Shown here in pieces: positions 3,057-10,388 of a DNA stretch of 39,422 nt. Position 1 is the stretch's first letter; each line of letters begins with the position of its first letter. Position numbers and translations under genes: made by a program. The notes below the pieces were generated by a model. It saw only the letters and a list, made by a program, of their open reading frames with translations, searched no databases and was not told the origin of the DNA. The stretch comes from Armatimonadota bacterium (GTDB taxonomy: Bacteria; Armatimonadota; Fimbriimonadia; Fimbriimonadales; ATM1): the NCBI GenBank assembly GCA_022567555.1, contig JADFGT010000015.1, positions 1 through 39,422 of the forward strand, in the 5' to 3' direction.

Positions 3057-4004
3057 ATGACGGTTGAACAGGCTGCCGATAAAATCAGGACGGAAGTCGC
3101 CAAAGCCGTCGTCGGCCAATCCCAGCTGGTGGAGCATGTGCTGGCGGCGATATTCGCGGACGGTCACGTTCTGTTGGAGGGCGTGCCCGGGGTTGCCAAG
3201 ACGCTGCTGGTCCGCGTCTTGGCCAGGTCGCTCTCGCTTGAGTACCGGCGAATCCAGTTCACGCCCGACCTAATGCCCAGCGACGTGGTCGGCACGAACG
3301 TTTTCAATCAACAGACGGGCGAGTTCGTCCTGAGGAAAGGCCCGATCTTCACCTCGATACTCTTGGCGGACGAGATCAATCGCACACCACCCAAAACGCA
3401 GGCCGCGCTCTTGGAGGCGATGGAGGAGCGCAAGGCCACGATTGACGGCGTGCCTTATAAGATGCCCTTTCCGTTCGTGGTCTTCGCCACGCAGAACCCG
3501 ATTGAGTTCGAGGGCACCTACCCGCTGCCCGAAGCGCAGCTGGACCGCTTCCTTTTGAAGCTGCTCGTCCCTTATCCCGAAGAGCACGAGGAGATAATTG
3601 TGCTGCAGCGGTATTCGGCAGGATTCCGCGCCCAAGACCTGGACAAAGTCGGCATACAGGAGGTGCTCACCGCGGAGGACCTTGCGTCGCTGCGCGAAGA
3701 GGTGAACCGCGTGCGGGTGGATGAGAAGATTCTGGATTACATCAATAAGGTGGTCCGGGCAACGCGGACCTCTGAGATGATCGCAGTCGGCGGGTCGCCG
3801 CGCGCGGGGATCGCCATTCTTCTATGCTCCAAAGGGCTGGCTGCGATAAGAGGCCGCGACTTCGTGACGCCGGACGACGCAAAGGAGGTCGCGCTTCCGG
3901 TTCTCCGCCACCGAGTTTTGTTGCGCCCGGAGGCGGAGATAGAAGGCCTGACCCCCGACCAGGTTGTCCTTAGCCGGTTCGAGGCGATTCCGGTGCCTCG
4001 GTAA
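3057..4004 (+). CDS. moxR: MoxR-family AAA+ ATPase
   Basis: A 315-residue protein of the usual MoxR length. Walker A is GVPGVAKT at about residues 42-49, Walker B is ILLADEINRT at about 101-110, and the sensor-1 region reads FATQNPIEFEGTYPLPEAQLDRF. MoxR ATPases act as chaperone-like ATPases, often with VWA-domain partners, in activating or assembling cell-envelope and metalloenzyme complexes. No VWA protein is encoded in this window. The last 18 codons are repeated at 4623-4679, beyond an inserted toxin-antitoxin cassette. The present stop is TAA at 4002-4004; the ancestral stop was probably the downstream TGA that overlaps the dacB start. Confidence 0.92.
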   Translation: MTVEQAADKIRTEVAKAVVGQSQLVEHVLAAIFADGHVLLEGVPGVAKTLLVRVLARSLSLEYRRIQFTPDLMPSDVVGTNVFNQQTGEFVLRKGPIFTSILLADEINRTPPKTQAALLEAMEERKATIDGVPYKMPFPFVVFATQNPIEFEGTYPLPEAQLDRFLLKLLVPYPEEHEEIIVLQRYSAGFRAQDLDKVGIQEVLTAEDLASLREEVNRVRVDEKILDYINKVVRATRTSEMIAVGGSPRAGIAILLCSKGLAAIRGRDFVTPDDAKEVALPVLRHRVLLRPEAEIEGLTPDQVVLSRFEAIPVPR

Positions 4005-4081
4005 GAGAACGGCTGGCCTCCCCTCGCAGGCATATCATCCCATGCCAGAATCTATACTGTCAGGCAGGGACGCCGAGACGG

Positions 4082-4316
4082 ATGGAACTGCGCTTCTGGA
4101 AGAATTCGGAAACTGGGGAGCCGCACATCTGCGACCACGGCGTCTCAAAAGATGAAGTAGCCTATGTTCTCGACAACCCAGGCGAGGTCCGATGCGGGCC
4201 GATACCTGCTCGTCGTGTACGTCCCCGACCCCGGCGGCAAGAGCGCCTTCGTCATCACGGCCAGGCAGCTGACCGGGAAGGCATTGAAGGCCTACAGGCG
4301 TCGTATGAAGAGATAA
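4082..4316 (+). pseudogene. Frameshifted toxin gene of a BrnT/DUF4258-like toxin-antitoxin pair
   Basis: The N-terminal half is read from ATG 4082 (MELRFWKNSETG, then a HICDHGVSKDEVAYVLDNPGE segment). The C-terminal half is in another frame from about 4197 (GRYLLVVYVPDPGG, then KSAFVITARQLTGK and a basic KAYRRRMKR end) and stops at TAA 4314-4316. Together these are the two ends of a small toxin-like family in which HGV..DEV..VL.NPGE is normally followed by a short loop and then GRYL.V.YVPDP. That loop (roughly a dozen residues) is missing, so a small internal deletion with a +1 frame change explains the break. The antitoxin begins 4 bases after the stop. The frameshifted product would lose the conserved C-terminal half and is probably inactive. 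Confidence 0.72.
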
Positions 4317-4320
4317 ACAG

Positions 4321-4602
4321 ATGAGTGAACAAGAACTGCCGAAAGGATGGTCGGAGGAACGGGTGAAGAGGGTCGCTGACCATTATGATAATCTCTCAGA
4401 CGAAGAACTTGCCGCGGAGATCGAGGGCACTTCTGAAGAGGATGAGGCCGCCCCGGTCTCTCCCGAGCAGGCCCGCGAGTACCTTCGGGAGCACATGGCA
4501 ATCGCGGCGAGGATGATCGAGAAACTGGCGGATCAGGACGCCGTGGAACTTTATCGCCAGGCCCGCGCAATGAAGCGAATAGCAAAGGAGCAGTCGGCGT
4601 AG
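4321..4602 (+). CDS. Antitoxin partner of the broken BrnT-like toxin
   Basis: A 93-residue acidic protein whose N-terminus (LPKGWSEERVKRVADHYDN) matches the antitoxins that usually follow this toxin family, in which a LP.GW.EERV..V..HY signature is typical. The C-terminal half (VSPEQAREYLREHMAIAARM...) is different from the usual short tail and looks helical. It starts 4 bases after the toxin stop, the usual toxin-first order. The frame is intact although its partner is broken, so it may be a surviving orphan that still acts as a DNA-binding or neutralising protein, or simply the slower part of the cassette to decay. Confidence 0.7.
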   Translation: MSEQELPKGWSEERVKRVADHYDNLSDEELAAEIEGTSEEDEAAPVSPEQAREYLREHMAIAARMIEKLADQDAVELYRQARAMKRIAKEQSA

Positions 4603-4675
4603 CCGCCGTCGCGCAACTGATCCTTACCGCTGATCAGGTTGTTCTCAGCCGGTTCGAGGCAATACCTGTCCCTCG

Positions 4676-6064
4676 GTGAGTAGGCTCTTCGCTGTGACCC
4701 CGCTGCTGCTGCTCTCTACTCTGGTCCAAGCCGACATATCCGCCGACCTGGACGCGCTCCTTTCCGATGCGGTCTTGGCAAGGGCCACTGTCGGCGTTTA
4801 TGTGAAAGAACTCGGAGGCGACGCGCTTTACGAAAAAAACGCGGACAAGCGGTTGATTCCGGCCAGCGTGATGAAGTTGATCCCCACTGCACTGGCTTTC
4901 GAGCGCCTCGGTCCCGACTATACGCCGGTCACGCTCGCGTGGCGCGACGAGAAGGGCGTGTACCTGCGCGGCGGCGGCGACCCCGGCCTGACCATCGAGG
5001 AACTGGCCACTCTGGCCGAAAAGATGGGCCTGAAGCCGGACGACGAAGTGCATTTCGACGACGGTCTGTTCGGCGAAGAGCGGTTCGCACCGGGCTGGGA
5101 GGTGGGCGACCTTCCGTTCGGCTTCTCCGCGCCGATCTCCGCCCTCACCGTAAACGGCGGCCGCGCCGAACTGTGGGCCGAGCCGGGAAACGCATTCTTG
5201 AAGCCGCGCAACTTCGGCGTTAGGGTGGAGGGGAAACCGAAAGCCGGGAACGGTCAACTCCGCATCCGGCGTGCCCCGAATGGCTGGACCGTTCGCGTGA
5301 GCGGTTCCTTAGCCAAAGGCCCGGCCAGGCGAATCGCCGGCGTCAGCCTTCCCGACCCCGGCCTGTGCGCGGCGCGCGTGTTTCATCCCAAAGCGAAGCG
5401 CGCGCTCGGCTTGAAGCGGCCCAAGAACGTCTTCTTCACCGAGGAGCCGATCAGCGTGGTTACGGTGGGTCCGTCTCCGATGATCGGAACGATCCGCGCA
5501 CGAAACGTCGAGGCGCTCGTGCGCCACACGCTGCAAGAAAGCGACAACATGTATGCGGAGACGCTGCTCCGTTTGTGCGGCGCGGAGACGGGCGACTCCG
5601 GCTCCTGGGAGGACTCCCTGAAACTGGCCGTGGAGATGCTGGCGCGCTTCGAAATCCCCGAAGACGCCTATCGGCTGAGCGACGGCAGCGGACTATCGCG
5701 CTCGAACATGATGACCGCGCGCGCCGTGGTCCAACTGCTGGAGCAGGTCCTGATGGCCCACAACGGCGAACGATTCCTGAACTCATTCGCAACGCCGGGA
5801 GTGGGAACGCTGGAAAAACGATTGGAGGGCGTCACGGTTTGGGCGAAGACCGGCACGCTCACCGGCGTTTCATGTATTGCGGGCGTTGTGGAAACCCACC
5901 CGCCCGTACGCCGCTTCGTCTTCGCGATTCTTATGAACAACTACGCGGGCAAGGCGAAACGCCCGCGCGAAATCCAGGACGCGATCATCCGTCGCTTGAG
6001 CCAGGAGGCGGCGTTCCGGCCTGTCGGGGCGGGTTCAGTGGCGAGAACGGCGCCGCGATACTAA
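4676..6064 (+). CDS. dacB: PBP4-type D-alanyl-D-alanine carboxypeptidase/endopeptidase
   Basis: A 462-residue class C penicillin-binding protein that trims or cuts peptidoglycan peptide cross-links in the periplasm. The signal peptide is MSRLFAVTPLLLLSTLVQA. The three catalytic motifs are present: SVMK (nucleophile Ser64, Lys67), SDN near residue 288 and KTG near residue 389, with the large insert between the first and second motifs typical of the PBP4 (peptidase S13) family. It starts at GTG 4676, which overlaps the TGA of the displaced moxR tail, suggesting that moxR and dacB were once translationally coupled before the cassette separated them. It converges with the STN gene at 6061. Confidence 0.92.
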   Translation: MSRLFAVTPLLLLSTLVQADISADLDALLSDAVLARATVGVYVKELGGDALYEKNADKRLIPASVMKLIPTALAFERLGPDYTPVTLAWRDEKGVYLRGGGDPGLTIEELATLAEKMGLKPDDEVHFDDGLFGEERFAPGWEVGDLPFGFSAPISALTVNGGRAELWAEPGNAFLKPRNFGVRVEGKPKAGNGQLRIRRAPNGWTVRVSGSLAKGPARRIAGVSLPDPGLCAARVFHPKAKRALGLKRPKNVFFTEEPISVVTVGPSPMIGTIRARNVEALVRHTLQESDNMYAETLLRLCGAETGDSGSWEDSLKLAVEMLARFEIPEDAYRLSDGSGLSRSNMMTARAVVQLLEQVLMAHNGERFLNSFATPGVGTLEKRLEGVTVWAKTGTLTGVSCIAGVVETHPPVRRFVFAILMNNYAGKAKRPREIQDAIIRRLSQEAAFRPVGAGSVARTAPRY

Positions 6065-8202
6065 GGCACTCCGCCGGGCGGCGGGGGACGATACTCTATC
6101 TTCTGCCTAAGCGCCCCCGGCAGCGACGCATAAGGCCTGAAGGGCACGCTGGGATCGCTCGTCGCAGACCGAACGATCTCGCCTGTGACCAGCCCAAGCC
6201 GGAGCCGGAACGTGAACATGTATTTGCCGACGATTGCAGGTTTCCATTCCCTTTCAAACAGAGTTGCCCTCCGCTCCTCAGATCTCCATCTGTCTTGCGC
6301 GTTCATCAAATTGAGATACGCAGCCGGGTGGCGGCCATTCGGCTTCTCGAACAAGCCCTCTCGCTTCACGAATCGAAGTTCGATCGTTGACTGGGCTAGC
6401 GGACCGCTCGGAAGCAGTTGCGTGATCTCGCTGTCGTCCCCCTGTTCGCGTGCGGTCCAGGTCGCCTGCGCCCACTCGAAGTCCTCCTTCTGGTCGGGAT
6501 CTCCCCGTACTGGTCCGCCCGCGGCGTTAGCGGTCGTTCTGCTTCGGTAGACGACGTCGCCGAAGCGCGCCTCGGCCGCTGGGCCCAGGCGGCCGTATTC
6601 CAGTTGCCCGCCCTCCAACAAGACTTTGCGTTGAACCGGTCCCAGAGCATTCCACAGGCGGAGCATGTATAAGCCCGCTTCGCTCCATGCCGGCCATAGG
6701 AGAATTCCCAGCGTGTGTTCGAGAATCGGTGACGAAGCCTGATAGTCGTTCAGTTTCGCCGCCAGGGAAGCCATCTGGTCGAAGGTGAGCCCCACCTGCC
6801 CCAGGAAAAGGTCTCGCGTGCTGAATAGAAGAGGCTGCGGCACGCTCTCGTATCGAGCCAGCGGCCACTCGACCGTTCGCACCTTCACCCAGCCGCGGTC
6901 AAGTTTCCACGCGGCGCGCATCGCGTTCGAGACAGCGTCGAGCAACGCGCCCGGCGCGGTGTCTTGCACAGTGACGGCGGACGCCGCCCAATAATGCACG
7001 TCGTATAGATCGCACACAAGCGAAACGTTCGCAGCCCCCGCGACCTCGCACAGAAGCGCGCCCAGTCCGCTCCTCGGGTCCACCGAAGAGCCTTTTTCAA
7101 AGAAAGCCTTCCTGCGCGCGAGCGGAAGGGCCAACCGCCCTCGTTCGTTTCGCTCTAAGACTTTCTTCAATCCCTCCGTTAGCGGGGTTTCTTCGTCAAG
7201 ACGGTTCTTTTCCCGAACAGGCGGCTCTTCACCCTCCTTCCAACCGGCGATGCGCCGCCCCCCCCATTGACTCGCGAAGTTAAGGCCCCCTCCGGTCGCA
7301 ACGACCTTGCCATCACGTCCCAACAGAGTGACCCACGCCGTCGCCGGATAATCCACATGGCCGCGCCGGCCCGGAGAGAGACGAAACTCCACGCGCACGT
7401 TTGCGACGTCATCTGCCGCCAAAGGCTGCGAGGACGGATCGGTCGGCGTTCTTCCCGTTCTCTCTTCGATTTCTCTCCATCGCTTCTCCCGCTCACGCGC
7501 CGCTTCTTCGATCAGCGTTCTTAGAGCGTCCGACGAAACGTTCAGCCGGTGTTGCGACGGCGTAGGGTCGTATGCGAACACAAGCCGCGACCTTCTGTCC
7601 AACTCAAGAAGTCGCTCGCGGGAGAGGCCTACGAAGACCTCGTTGACAAACCGCGACCAGTGAGAGACCAAGCCCTGCTGCCAAAGCATCTGGCGACTCA
7701 GGTCCGTCCACCGCTCCCAATCACCGGCCTGAAGCGCGGCGTTGTAACGCTCGGTCAGCGCGGCGATCTCTTTCTCGACCGCCTCCCGGTCCGCCTTTTC
7801 CGTCTCCTTCAACTGCTTCTTGGCCTTCTTCTGAAGGTCCAGGTATGGCTTCAAGATCAGTTCTTCTAACTGCTTCCGCTCCTCTTTCTTGGACGCGGTG
7901 GTCTGATAGAGTCGATAGCCGTCGTCTTCTTTCTTCCAGGTCCAATCGAAGTGCTCGGCGATGACCGAAAGAACTTCGTGCGCCGGGCGGTCTTTGGCCA
8001 GGAGGATAATCAGCTCCTCCTCCAGCGCCCCGGACGCCGCCAGCCGCACGCCGATGTCCTCCGACAGCCGCTTCAGTACAACCCGGACCGTCTCAGCCTC
8101 GGCACGTACTGTGACCGTGCCGGCAAGACGACCGTCGGCCGACAGGTCAGCGGGGCCCTGCCCCGCGAACAGCGCGGCCAAGACGACAACCGGTGTGGTC
8201 AT
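6061..8202 (-). CDS. STN-domain (secretin-like) exported protein, tandem copy B
   Basis: A protein of about 713 residues from ATG 8200-8202, chosen because it overlaps the stop of the upstream paralogue (ATGA) and opens directly with a signal-like segment (TTPVVVLAALFAGQG). The frame stays open further upstream, but that extension lies inside the paralogue. After the signal comes an STN-like fold: VTVRAEAETVRVVLKRLSED, then a segment ending in HFDWTWKKEDDGYRLYQT. STN domains occur at the N-terminus of secretins and TonB-dependent receptors. Here no secretin pore or beta-barrel follows; instead there is a Lys/Glu-rich coiled-coil stretch (about residues 110-180) and a long domain I do not recognise, with a QLLPSGPL...STIELRFV segment shared with copy A. 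Its role in the envelope is unknown. Confidence 0.82.
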   Translation of the reverse strand: MTTPVVVLAALFAGQGPADLSADGRLAGTVTVRAEAETVRVVLKRLSEDIGVRLAASGALEEELIILLAKDRPAHEVLSVIAEHFDWTWKKEDDGYRLYQTTASKKEERKQLEELILKPYLDLQKKAKKQLKETEKADREAVEKEIAALTERYNAALQAGDWERWTDLSRQMLWQQGLVSHWSRFVNEVFVGLSRERLLELDRRSRLVFAYDPTPSQHRLNVSSDALRTLIEEAAREREKRWREIEERTGRTPTDPSSQPLAADDVANVRVEFRLSPGRRGHVDYPATAWVTLLGRDGKVVATGGGLNFASQWGGRRIAGWKEGEEPPVREKNRLDEETPLTEGLKKVLERNERGRLALPLARRKAFFEKGSSVDPRSGLGALLCEVAGAANVSLVCDLYDVHYWAASAVTVQDTAPGALLDAVSNAMRAAWKLDRGWVKVRTVEWPLARYESVPQPLLFSTRDLFLGQVGLTFDQMASLAAKLNDYQASSPILEHTLGILLWPAWSEAGLYMLRLWNALGPVQRKVLLEGGQLEYGRLGPAAEARFGDVVYRSRTTANAAGGPVRGDPDQKEDFEWAQATWTAREQGDDSEITQLLPSGPLAQSTIELRFVKREGLFEKPNGRHPAAYLNLMNAQDRWRSEERRATLFEREWKPAIVGKYMFTFRLRLGLVTGEIVRSATSDPSVPFRPYASLPGALRQKIEYRPPPPGGVP
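7914..8106. repeat. Near-identical STN-coding segment, copy B side
   Basis: Bases 7914-8106 align without gaps to 10085-10277, with about 16 mismatches by my count and an uninterrupted identical run of 77 bases (8018-8094). Outside this window the paralogues are clearly more diverged, and most mismatches inside it are clustered near 7965-7981. Confidence 0.85.
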
Positions 8203-10388
8203 GGCGCCATCTCCATTCCGGGCGGCGGCCCGCCCCTTCTCCCGCCGCGAAACTCCTCTTCGTACCGGGCAATCTTCTGTCGCAGACCCTCCGCCAGCGC
8301 GGAGAAAGGTCCGAACGGCACGTTTGGATCGCCGATCGCCGACCTCAGAACGACGCCTCGAACGACGCCCGGTCCGGGACGAAACGTGAACATGTGCTTT
8401 CCGAAAACCGCCGGTTTGCACTGCTGAGAGTACATCCGCTCCCGCCAGCCCTCACGCGTCGAGCTGCCGGCGAAGTTCTGGAAGTTATAGAACTTGAACC
8501 GGTCCGATTCCGGCTTCAGGAACAGCGCCAGCCTGTCAACTTGATACAGTTCTACTGTCGAGTCCGGCAGAGGCCCGCTCGGCAAGAGTTGGGTGATTTC
8601 TTGGTCACCCTTTGCCTCTAGTGCACCGGTACCCCATGCCGCCCTTGCCCACGCAAGGTCCGCTATCTCGTCCGGGTCGTCCGTTATGATGTCGCCGGCC
8701 GCGTAGATGAGTGTGTTGGACAGATAAACGACTTCGCCGAAGCGGGCCTTCGCCTGCGGAGTAAGACGCCGGTATTCCAGCCGGCCGCCTTCAGACAGAA
8801 GCCCTCTTCCCGTGACCCCTATTGCGTCCCACAGGCGGAGCGTGGGCAACTTGACGGCTCCCCCCACTACCCATATCCAGCCCAAGATCCCCACCAGAAC
8901 CGGCGAGTCGGCCTGATAGTCGTTTACGCCGGCAGCCACCGCCGCCGCCTGGTCGAGAGTTATGCCGACCTGTTTCAGATACAGATCACGCGTGCCCAAC
9001 AGCAGTCTGCGAGGAACGGTCGCGTACCGATAAAGCGGCCACTCGCGCGTCCGCACCTTGACCCAGCCACCGTCCAACCTCCAATCGGCCCGCATCGCTC
9101 CGCAAACCGTGTCGAGCAAATCGCCGACCGTTGTCTTTTCAACCCTGATGCCGCCCGAGGCCAACGAGTGATAGTCATAAACGTCCGCGATAATTGCCGT
9201 GTCGCCGCCTTCGGCAATCGCGGTCAGCAGCGTTCCGTAGCCTGTGAGTGGGTCCCGGTCGCTCGTCCCTTTCAAGAACGCAGCCCTTGCCTCCAGGATT
9301 ACGCGGAGGTTCCCATATTGGTCCTGCCTGTCCAAGAGGACCCTAAGTTCTACGGTGGCGGGCGTGTCGTCCAGCCGGTTTTTCTCGCGCTTGGGCGCCT
9401 CCTCCAGCAGGTCCCAGCCGTAGCGGGGCCGCCTGTAGGGCTCAAGGTCAAAGCCCCTGCTCGCGGTCAGGCGTACTCCGTCAGCGTCGAACATCTCCAC
9501 CCGGATGTCGAAGTCCGCTGATGGCCGGCTATACAGGTTAGGGAAACTGACTGTGATTCGGACGTTTGCCACGTCCGCCGCTGAAAACCGCCTGACGCCG
9601 GTAGGCGTCCGTCCGGAGGACTCTTCGATCTGCCTGATCCTGTCTTCGCGATACGCTACTGCCGCGACGATAAGCTCCGCAAGTTCAGACTGCCGAATCG
9701 GCAGAGCATATTGAGACGGCGTCGGGCGCAGAGCGAAAACGAGCCGCTGTCGCCGGTCCAGTTCCAAGAATCGGCTCGGCCCCAGCGACAGTAGAAATGT
9801 ATCCGCGCACCGAGTCCATGGGTCGAGCAAGGCGCGCAGTTCGGTGATTTTCCGGCGGAGTCTGTCTATCTCGCTCCCTTGGGTGATAACGTTCCTGCCG
9901 CGCCTCTGCTCGGCGTACGCTTCTTCGAGCCATTCGATCTCCTTTTCGACCTGTTCTCTTTCTGCCTTTCCCGCCTCTTCAAGCCGCTCGCGAGCCCGTT
10001 TCTGCGCTTCCAGGTATGGCCTTACAATAAGTGTCTCCAGTTGCCATTGCTCCTCCCGCCGGGACGACACAGTCTGATACAGCCGATAGCCGTCGTCCTC
10101 TTTCTTCCAAGTCCAATCGAAGTGCTCGGCGATGATAGTCAGGATTTCTCGAGCCGGGCGGTCTTTGGCCAGGAGGACAATCAGGTCGTCCTCCAGCGCC
10201 CCGGACGCCGCCAGCCGCACGCCGATGTCCTCCGACAGCCGCTTCAGTACAACCCGGACCGTCTCCGCCTCGGCCCGGACGCTGACCGCCTTCTCCAGCC
10301 GCGCATCGCCCTCGAACTGCGCCTGCGCGCAGGCCGAGGCGATCAGCAACGACGACATGATCCCGAGGGCTTTCATCAATGGGCGCAC
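8199..10388 (-). CDS. STN-domain (secretin-like) exported protein, tandem copy A
   Basis: A 729-residue paralogue of the following gene, starting at GTG 10388 (an internal ATG at 10376 is an alternative). The signal peptide reads MKALGIMSSLLIASACAQA. It has the same architecture as copy B: an STN-like domain, a charged coiled coil, then a long shared domain with matching landmarks (REKNRLD, a D.QA.SPVL.. segment, GQLEY/GRLEYRRL, ITQLLPSGPL). Over most of the length the two proteins are only moderately similar, but the STN-coding DNA is nearly identical. The stop TGA overlaps the ATG of copy B, so the two are translated together and probably act together. Function unknown. Confidence 0.82.
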   Translation of the reverse strand: MRPLMKALGIMSSLLIASACAQAQFEGDARLEKAVSVRAEAETVRVVLKRLSEDIGVRLAASGALEDDLIVLLAKDRPAREILTIIAEHFDWTWKKEDDGYRLYQTVSSRREEQWQLETLIVRPYLEAQKRARERLEEAGKAEREQVEKEIEWLEEAYAEQRRGRNVITQGSEIDRLRRKITELRALLDPWTRCADTFLLSLGPSRFLELDRRQRLVFALRPTPSQYALPIRQSELAELIVAAVAYREDRIRQIEESSGRTPTGVRRFSAADVANVRITVSFPNLYSRPSADFDIRVEMFDADGVRLTASRGFDLEPYRRPRYGWDLLEEAPKREKNRLDDTPATVELRVLLDRQDQYGNLRVILEARAAFLKGTSDRDPLTGYGTLLTAIAEGGDTAIIADVYDYHSLASGGIRVEKTTVGDLLDTVCGAMRADWRLDGGWVKVRTREWPLYRYATVPRRLLLGTRDLYLKQVGITLDQAAAVAAGVNDYQADSPVLVGILGWIWVVGGAVKLPTLRLWDAIGVTGRGLLSEGGRLEYRRLTPQAKARFGEVVYLSNTLIYAAGDIITDDPDEIADLAWARAAWGTGALEAKGDQEITQLLPSGPLPDSTVELYQVDRLALFLKPESDRFKFYNFQNFAGSSTREGWRERMYSQQCKPAVFGKHMFTFRPGPGVVRGVVLRSAIGDPNVPFGPFSALAEGLRQKIARYEEEFRGGRRGGPPPGMEMAP
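10085..10277. repeat. Near-identical STN-coding segment, copy A side
   Basis: Partner of the segment at 7914-8106, in the same orientation and 2171 bases away. It encodes the core of the STN-like domain, from RAEAETVRVVLKRLSED to the DWTWKKEDDGYRL motif. Confidence 0.85.

Follow-up and report, generated by a model that had tools for sequence, protein, structure and literature searches.

The moxR–dacB junction

The window, by which we mean the whole analysed stretch of 39,422 nucleotides from an Armatimonadota bacterium, contains a complete moxR gene followed by a small cassette, a second copy of the moxR 3' end and dacB (table 1). The two tails form a direct repeat (3947-4005 and 4622-4680; 59 nt, 81% identity), the longest identical run of which is 14 nt. 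When the tails are compared codon by codon, 11 of the 57 bases differ, nine of them at third positions; the differences comprise eight silent changes, one replacement of proline by alanine and a change of stop codon (TAA versus TGA). The eight silent codons, the differing stops and the 17 equal residues out of 18 are exactly as reported by an earlier reading of this DNA made without database searches (the sequence-only reading). Within its own genome the moxR tail is represented by these two copies only, the next matches (E ≥ 0.2) being short chance matches.

Table 1. Features at the moxR–dacB junction, with positions in the window.
Feature	Position	Strand	Evidence
moxR (AAA ATPase), complete target gene	3057..4004	+	Pfam AAA_3, E 5e-64, and AAA_lid_2; same-order orthologues with 56-77% identity
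In-gene copy of the moxR tail, LTPDQVVLSRFEAIPVPR then TAA	3948..4004	+	Repeat and codon comparison
Inserted cassette between the tail copies	4006..4622	+	Not found at relatives' moxR loci
Broken DUF4258-like toxin gene, about 41 nt missing near 4175	4082..4316	+	Halves match the intact G022 toxin
Antitoxin gene, open frame; family N-terminus, differing C-terminus	4321..4602	+	Alignment of homologous antitoxins
Displaced second moxR tail, LTADQVVLSRFEAIPVPR then TGA, start codon absent	4623..4679	+	Repeat and codon comparison
dacB (S13 D-Ala-D-Ala carboxypeptidase), GTG start	4676..6064	+	Pfam Peptidase_S13, E 6e-62; TIGR00666 above cut-off

The TGA of the displaced tail (4677-4679) overlaps the GTG of dacB (4676-4678) as GTGA at 4676-4679, an overlap that had likewise been described correctly. 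The frame of the displaced tail is open from position 4446 and contains no ATG, GTG or TTG; the downstream copy is thus not a part of another intact gene, and its role as a translated leader of dacB was ruled out, as a usable start codon is absent. Microhomology, in the form of the trinucleotide CCT, is shared at the 4622 junction only and is not decisive. Beyond dacB, the window (6061-10388) bears two adjoining paralogous large minus-strand frames (786 and 729 residues) with long repeats in common.

Two moxR tails could also arise artificially, by the joining of two strains in a metagenome-type assembly, and the genome does consist of 179 contigs with 2.9% contamination, two alleles being present. 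However, the junctions at 4005 and 4622 lack any long exact overlap that an assembler might have used (the longest run being the 14 nt given above), and the same arrangement is met again in other genomes (see below). An artefact of this kind is hardly credible.

The cassette and its cargo

The only frames between the tails are those of a toxin and an antitoxin, and no integrase gene was found in the cassette. The toxin gene falls into two halves (the first from 4082, the second as far as 4316) that lie in different frames because about 41 nt are missing in comparison with intact homologues; these halves match the intact toxin from genome G022 at residues 1-44 and 48-92. All eight toxin-family members compared with Pfam match DUF4258 (PF14076), and the partner of a distant plasmid homologue of the toxin is annotated as a CopG family antitoxin. 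The window antitoxin has the N-terminal segment common to nine homologous antitoxins and lacks their conserved C-terminal segment; at 4321-4602, a different C-terminus of about 45 residues replaces the conserved EVPxxLVPxVRELIAKH.

The cassette therefore belongs to a small family of toxin-antitoxin pairs and is in decay. Homologous gene pairs elsewhere (in G022, G204, G213 and at six Chloroflexota loci) uphold its identification as a toxin-antitoxin cassette by the sequence-only reading, with the correction that the toxin is not intact. The family resembles DUF4258-like/CopG type II systems in the DUF4258 matches of the homologous toxins and in the CopG-annotated partner on a plasmid; the window pair, as predicted from its sequence, differs from such systems in its broken toxin and in the loss of the conserved antitoxin C-terminus.

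The moxR locus in related genomes

An orthologue of moxR (56-77% identity) is present in most of 60 related genomes, all from outside the genus, in none of which was the cassette found at moxR; the 29 moxR junctions that were read out are all free of it. The relatives, then, do not all carry the cassette and both tails. The only good homologue of the toxin or antitoxin among these 60 genomes lies in G022, at another gene. Adjacency of moxR and dacB without the cassette exists in the family: in G006, which belongs to another genus of the same family, moxR has one tail and its TAA ends 2 bases before the dacB ATG. In G003 moxR overlaps a different gene by GTGA, with dacB about 1 kb further on; in G002 dacB does not adjoin moxR, and in G004 no dacB was found. 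The ancestral moxR–dacB overlap postulated by the sequence-only reading is therefore backed by G006 as to adjacency, albeit with a 2-nt gap, but not as to the overlap itself, the exact GTGA with dacB being seen only at the window's own displaced copy.

The window tails are more similar to each other (46/57 bases) than to the tail of any of the 29 relatives (at most 42/57), and both contain SRFEAIPVPR, residues of which are absent from the relatives. A scan of genome contigs for moxR gave remote homologues only. Further copies of the 57-base tail beside other small cassettes, for which a search had been suggested, were not found in this genome, and the homologous cassettes carry the tails of other genes. 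One may also think of a tandem duplication of moxR, the second copy of which was mostly replaced by the cassette and left only its tail; this would yield two tails evolved under selection in one genome. Yet two adjacent moxR orthologues occur in no relative, and the same course of events would need repeating at three unrelated genes, each time with a short tail left over, which makes it improbable.

Homologous cassettes at other loci

We surveyed ten homologous cassettes besides the window, drawn from 291 genomes of the phylum, where good homologues were restricted to G022, G204 and G213, and from 400 Chloroflexota genomes, which provided seven. A flanking gene-end duplication is present at two of the ten (G022 and G407, the latter in another phylum than the window), and the other eight have no flanking repeat. 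In G022, the duplicated stretch is the 3' end of a gene for a DNA methylase, stop codon included, which recurs after the antitoxin (46 nt, with four bases differing), and the repeat runs 7-8 bases past the methylase stop into the end of a convergent mreB. In G407, a dehydrogenase E1 gene ends directly at the cassette, which lies in the opposite orientation; on the far side of the cassette 38 E1 codons (ELFDE...ADVE) recur in frame, beside a mandelate-racemase-like gene, with 28 base and 11 residue differences over 114 codon-aligned bases. Like flanks are thus found at two genes unrelated to moxR and to each other, and the moxR locus is one of three independent cases in a single toxin-antitoxin family rather than a lone curiosity.

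Along the target gene the order is the same in all three cases, namely the whole gene, the cassette and the displaced tail, with the cassette in either orientation. The length of the repeat differs by locus (59 nt in the window, 46 nt in G022 and about 114-116 nt in G407). The spacer between the repeat and the toxin start measures about 210-230 nt in G022 and G407 and 77 nt in the window, and that between the antitoxin stop and the far flank about 33-37 nt and 20 nt, respectively. No common motif is visible at the termini of the three cassettes. An empty site corresponding to G022 was not found in its family, where the methylase gene and mreB are not neighbours. The downstream copy in G022 reads HEC where all relatives read out have HEY, with a conserved tyrosine, and is therefore probably decaying. 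Comparison of the flanks by tblastx gave only noise in this GC-rich DNA. No relatives of the toxin were found in phages and viral contigs, and plasmids provided the two distant homologues of it.

Two loci of the family may be recorded here. At L152:6542-6953 (G677), a homologous pair with a truncated toxin lies between pdxS and pdxT in a conserved operon, without tail duplication. At L133 (G204:C284), a degenerate second copy of the toxin is found about 1.2 kb upstream of an intact pair, with small frames in between.

To gauge chance, we placed random 600-bp pseudo-cassettes and counted equally strong flanking repeats within 400 bp; these occurred at 0.3% of positions in this genome (727 kb) and at 0.09% in other bacterial loci (360 kb). 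Against the rate of 0.3%, two flanked loci out of ten have a binomial chance of about 4e-4 (a hand calculation that leaves out the window, since it was chosen for its repeat).

The succession of gene, replacement tail, cargo and displaced tail is the arrangement of known integrating elements in protein-coding genes, such as icd of Escherichia coli, whose end these elements restore. The sequence-only reading had noted a likeness to elements that restore the end of their target gene, and the cassette could be what is left of an element of the tyrosine-recombinase type, which would have repaired the 3' end of moxR, its integrase having been lost afterwards. It shares with the icd-type elements the complete gene, the cargo and the displaced variant tail, but differs from them in having several unrelated targets and neither an integrase nor a shared core. 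A site-specific element is very unlikely, because the integrase and a common core (given the 14-nt longest run) are absent and because one cassette family sits at three unrelated genes in both orientations; the proposed likeness is not supported.

Origin of the two tails

When the displaced copy was allowed to drift freely in a simulation, at most one residue change among ten coding differences was obtained with P = 0.002; the calculation covers 18 codons and uses a simple mutation model. As the displaced tail has no start codon and is not translated on its own, selection on it at its present place is unlikely. The tails differ almost only silently, and the event was therefore most likely one in which DNA from two sister lineages was joined; judged from this pattern, the two window tails probably come from such lineages and were brought together by recombination. 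The view that the tails evolved under selection in different genomes, and not through a recent tandem duplication, was already that of the sequence-only reading, and the simulation supports it.

The main alternative is a plain long duplication of the target in place, in which about 59 nt would have been duplicated by staggered breakage or template copying and the copies would later have diverged within the lineage. Long and variable duplications have been reported for restriction-modification genes (PMC3874152 and PMC1643837), the G022 copies differ at just 4/46 bases, and the length of the repeat is not constant among loci. The G022 locus, with its near-identical copies and its downstream change at the conserved tyrosine, fits duplication and decay. 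The moxR locus does not fit so well, for its displaced copy, in spite of being startless, shows only one changed residue in 18 and has nine of its 11 differences at third positions; in G407, too, the frame was kept over 38 codons, although the same kind of simulation makes this a weak test (P = 0.04). We consider duplication in place unlikely as an explanation of the moxR locus.

As to which tail is the newcomer, the upstream tail has a GC content at third codon positions (GC3) of 0.78, the same value as the remainder of moxR, against 0.50 for the downstream tail (P about 0.008), and nowhere in moxR is a GC3 as low as 0.50 found in a block of 18 codons. From this single test on 18 codons there is a hint of the downstream tail being the immigrant, opposite to the assignment made by the sequence-only reading, according to which the upstream tail was the replacement.

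A possible route of insertion

The explanation that we favour, and hold to be reasonably likely, is that an addiction module came into the moxR–dacB junction through a recombination event in which the 3' end of moxR was duplicated and two sister lineages were joined. A module of toxin and antitoxin, devoid of a transposase or integrase of its own, would have entered the junction of overlapping moxR and dacB genes. The donor fragment, consisting of the cassette and one moxR tail, would have recombined with the resident junction, one end being joined through homology in moxR or its tail and the other either illegitimately or by crossing over within the short tail; the toxin would have decayed after the insertion. 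Homologous exchange at about 80% identity is inefficient, and eight of the ten surveyed homologous cassettes, having no flanking repeat, speak against this explanation. The duplication leaves moxR whole together with the sequence leading into dacB, and therefore neither gene is lost. Joints inside the next gene would destroy that gene and be lost, and selection may therefore enrich tail duplications at overlapping genes (moxR–dacB and methylase–mreB). Transfer between lineages, a recombinational route and selection sparing both neighbours are what we infer from the arrangement.

Relation to known insertions

Homology-facilitated illegitimate recombination, in which one homologous and one illegitimate end insert short foreign DNA beside a homologous segment, is a laboratory process (PMC3240628), whereas here the product alone is seen. 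Insertion with long target duplication is known for restriction-modification systems (Nobusato et al. 2000, Gene 259:99, as summarised in PMC1643837, PMC3031569 and PMC3874152). Such insertions resemble ours in involving a transposase-free addiction module and long, variable direct repeats derived from the target (of the order of 100 bp). They differ in that the cargo here is a toxin-antitoxin pair, the repeats are gene 3' ends and the window copies have diverged mostly silently, pointing to two lineages.

Addiction-module cargo between direct repeats without a transposase is a feature of the window, G022 and G407 alike, with the copies being 91% identical in G022, 81% in the window (with the silent pattern) and about 75% in G407. 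The three flanked cases suggest long target duplication upon insertion as the way in which addiction modules of this kind spread with no transposase. Full-text searching, incomplete in its coverage, found no literature on toxin-antitoxin cassettes with gene-tail duplication. Insertions of this kind are known for restriction-modification genes; that they also occur with toxin-antitoxin cassettes, and that the two tails have diverged silently, appears to be new as far as the literature could be searched.

These observations touch on an open question, the movement of chromosomal toxin-antitoxin modules in the absence of any visible mobile element, the duplicated gene tail being a readable scar of insertion. 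They also link toxin-antitoxin pairs with an older observation on restriction-modification genes, their long target duplication, which lacks a mechanistic explanation. Should tail duplication recur, insertions could be counted and polarised (the whole gene versus the displaced tail), and recombination between sister species could be tested against transposition. It is conceivable, though we put it forward only tentatively, that members of this toxin-antitoxin family travel as minimal cassettes without a transposase and, on insertion, regularly capture or duplicate the 3' end of the gene next to them; insertion into tightly packed gene pairs would then be harmless. If so, toxin-antitoxin and restriction-modification genes would share a mobility by recombination and addiction.

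Other flanking repeats

A generally repeat-rich genome was considered as a cause of the moxR arrangement and rejected: a scan of 774 kb did reveal flanking repeats at other places, of which the examined ones proved to be pieces of RHS type, repeats that were palindromic or dispersed, or paralogues. At L226:4821-6317 (contig C128), the 3' end of a gene for 614 residues (58 nt, 91%) recurs 1.4 kb downstream, past two inserted frames; this repeat is hairpin-rich and has only residue-changing differences. On contig C5 of this genome (L182:7921-8996), an RHS-like direct repeat of 80 nt and 95% identity (MAVTNYFTVNGEIIGEE) flanks a frame of 297 residues and possibly represents displaced RHS C-terminal parts.
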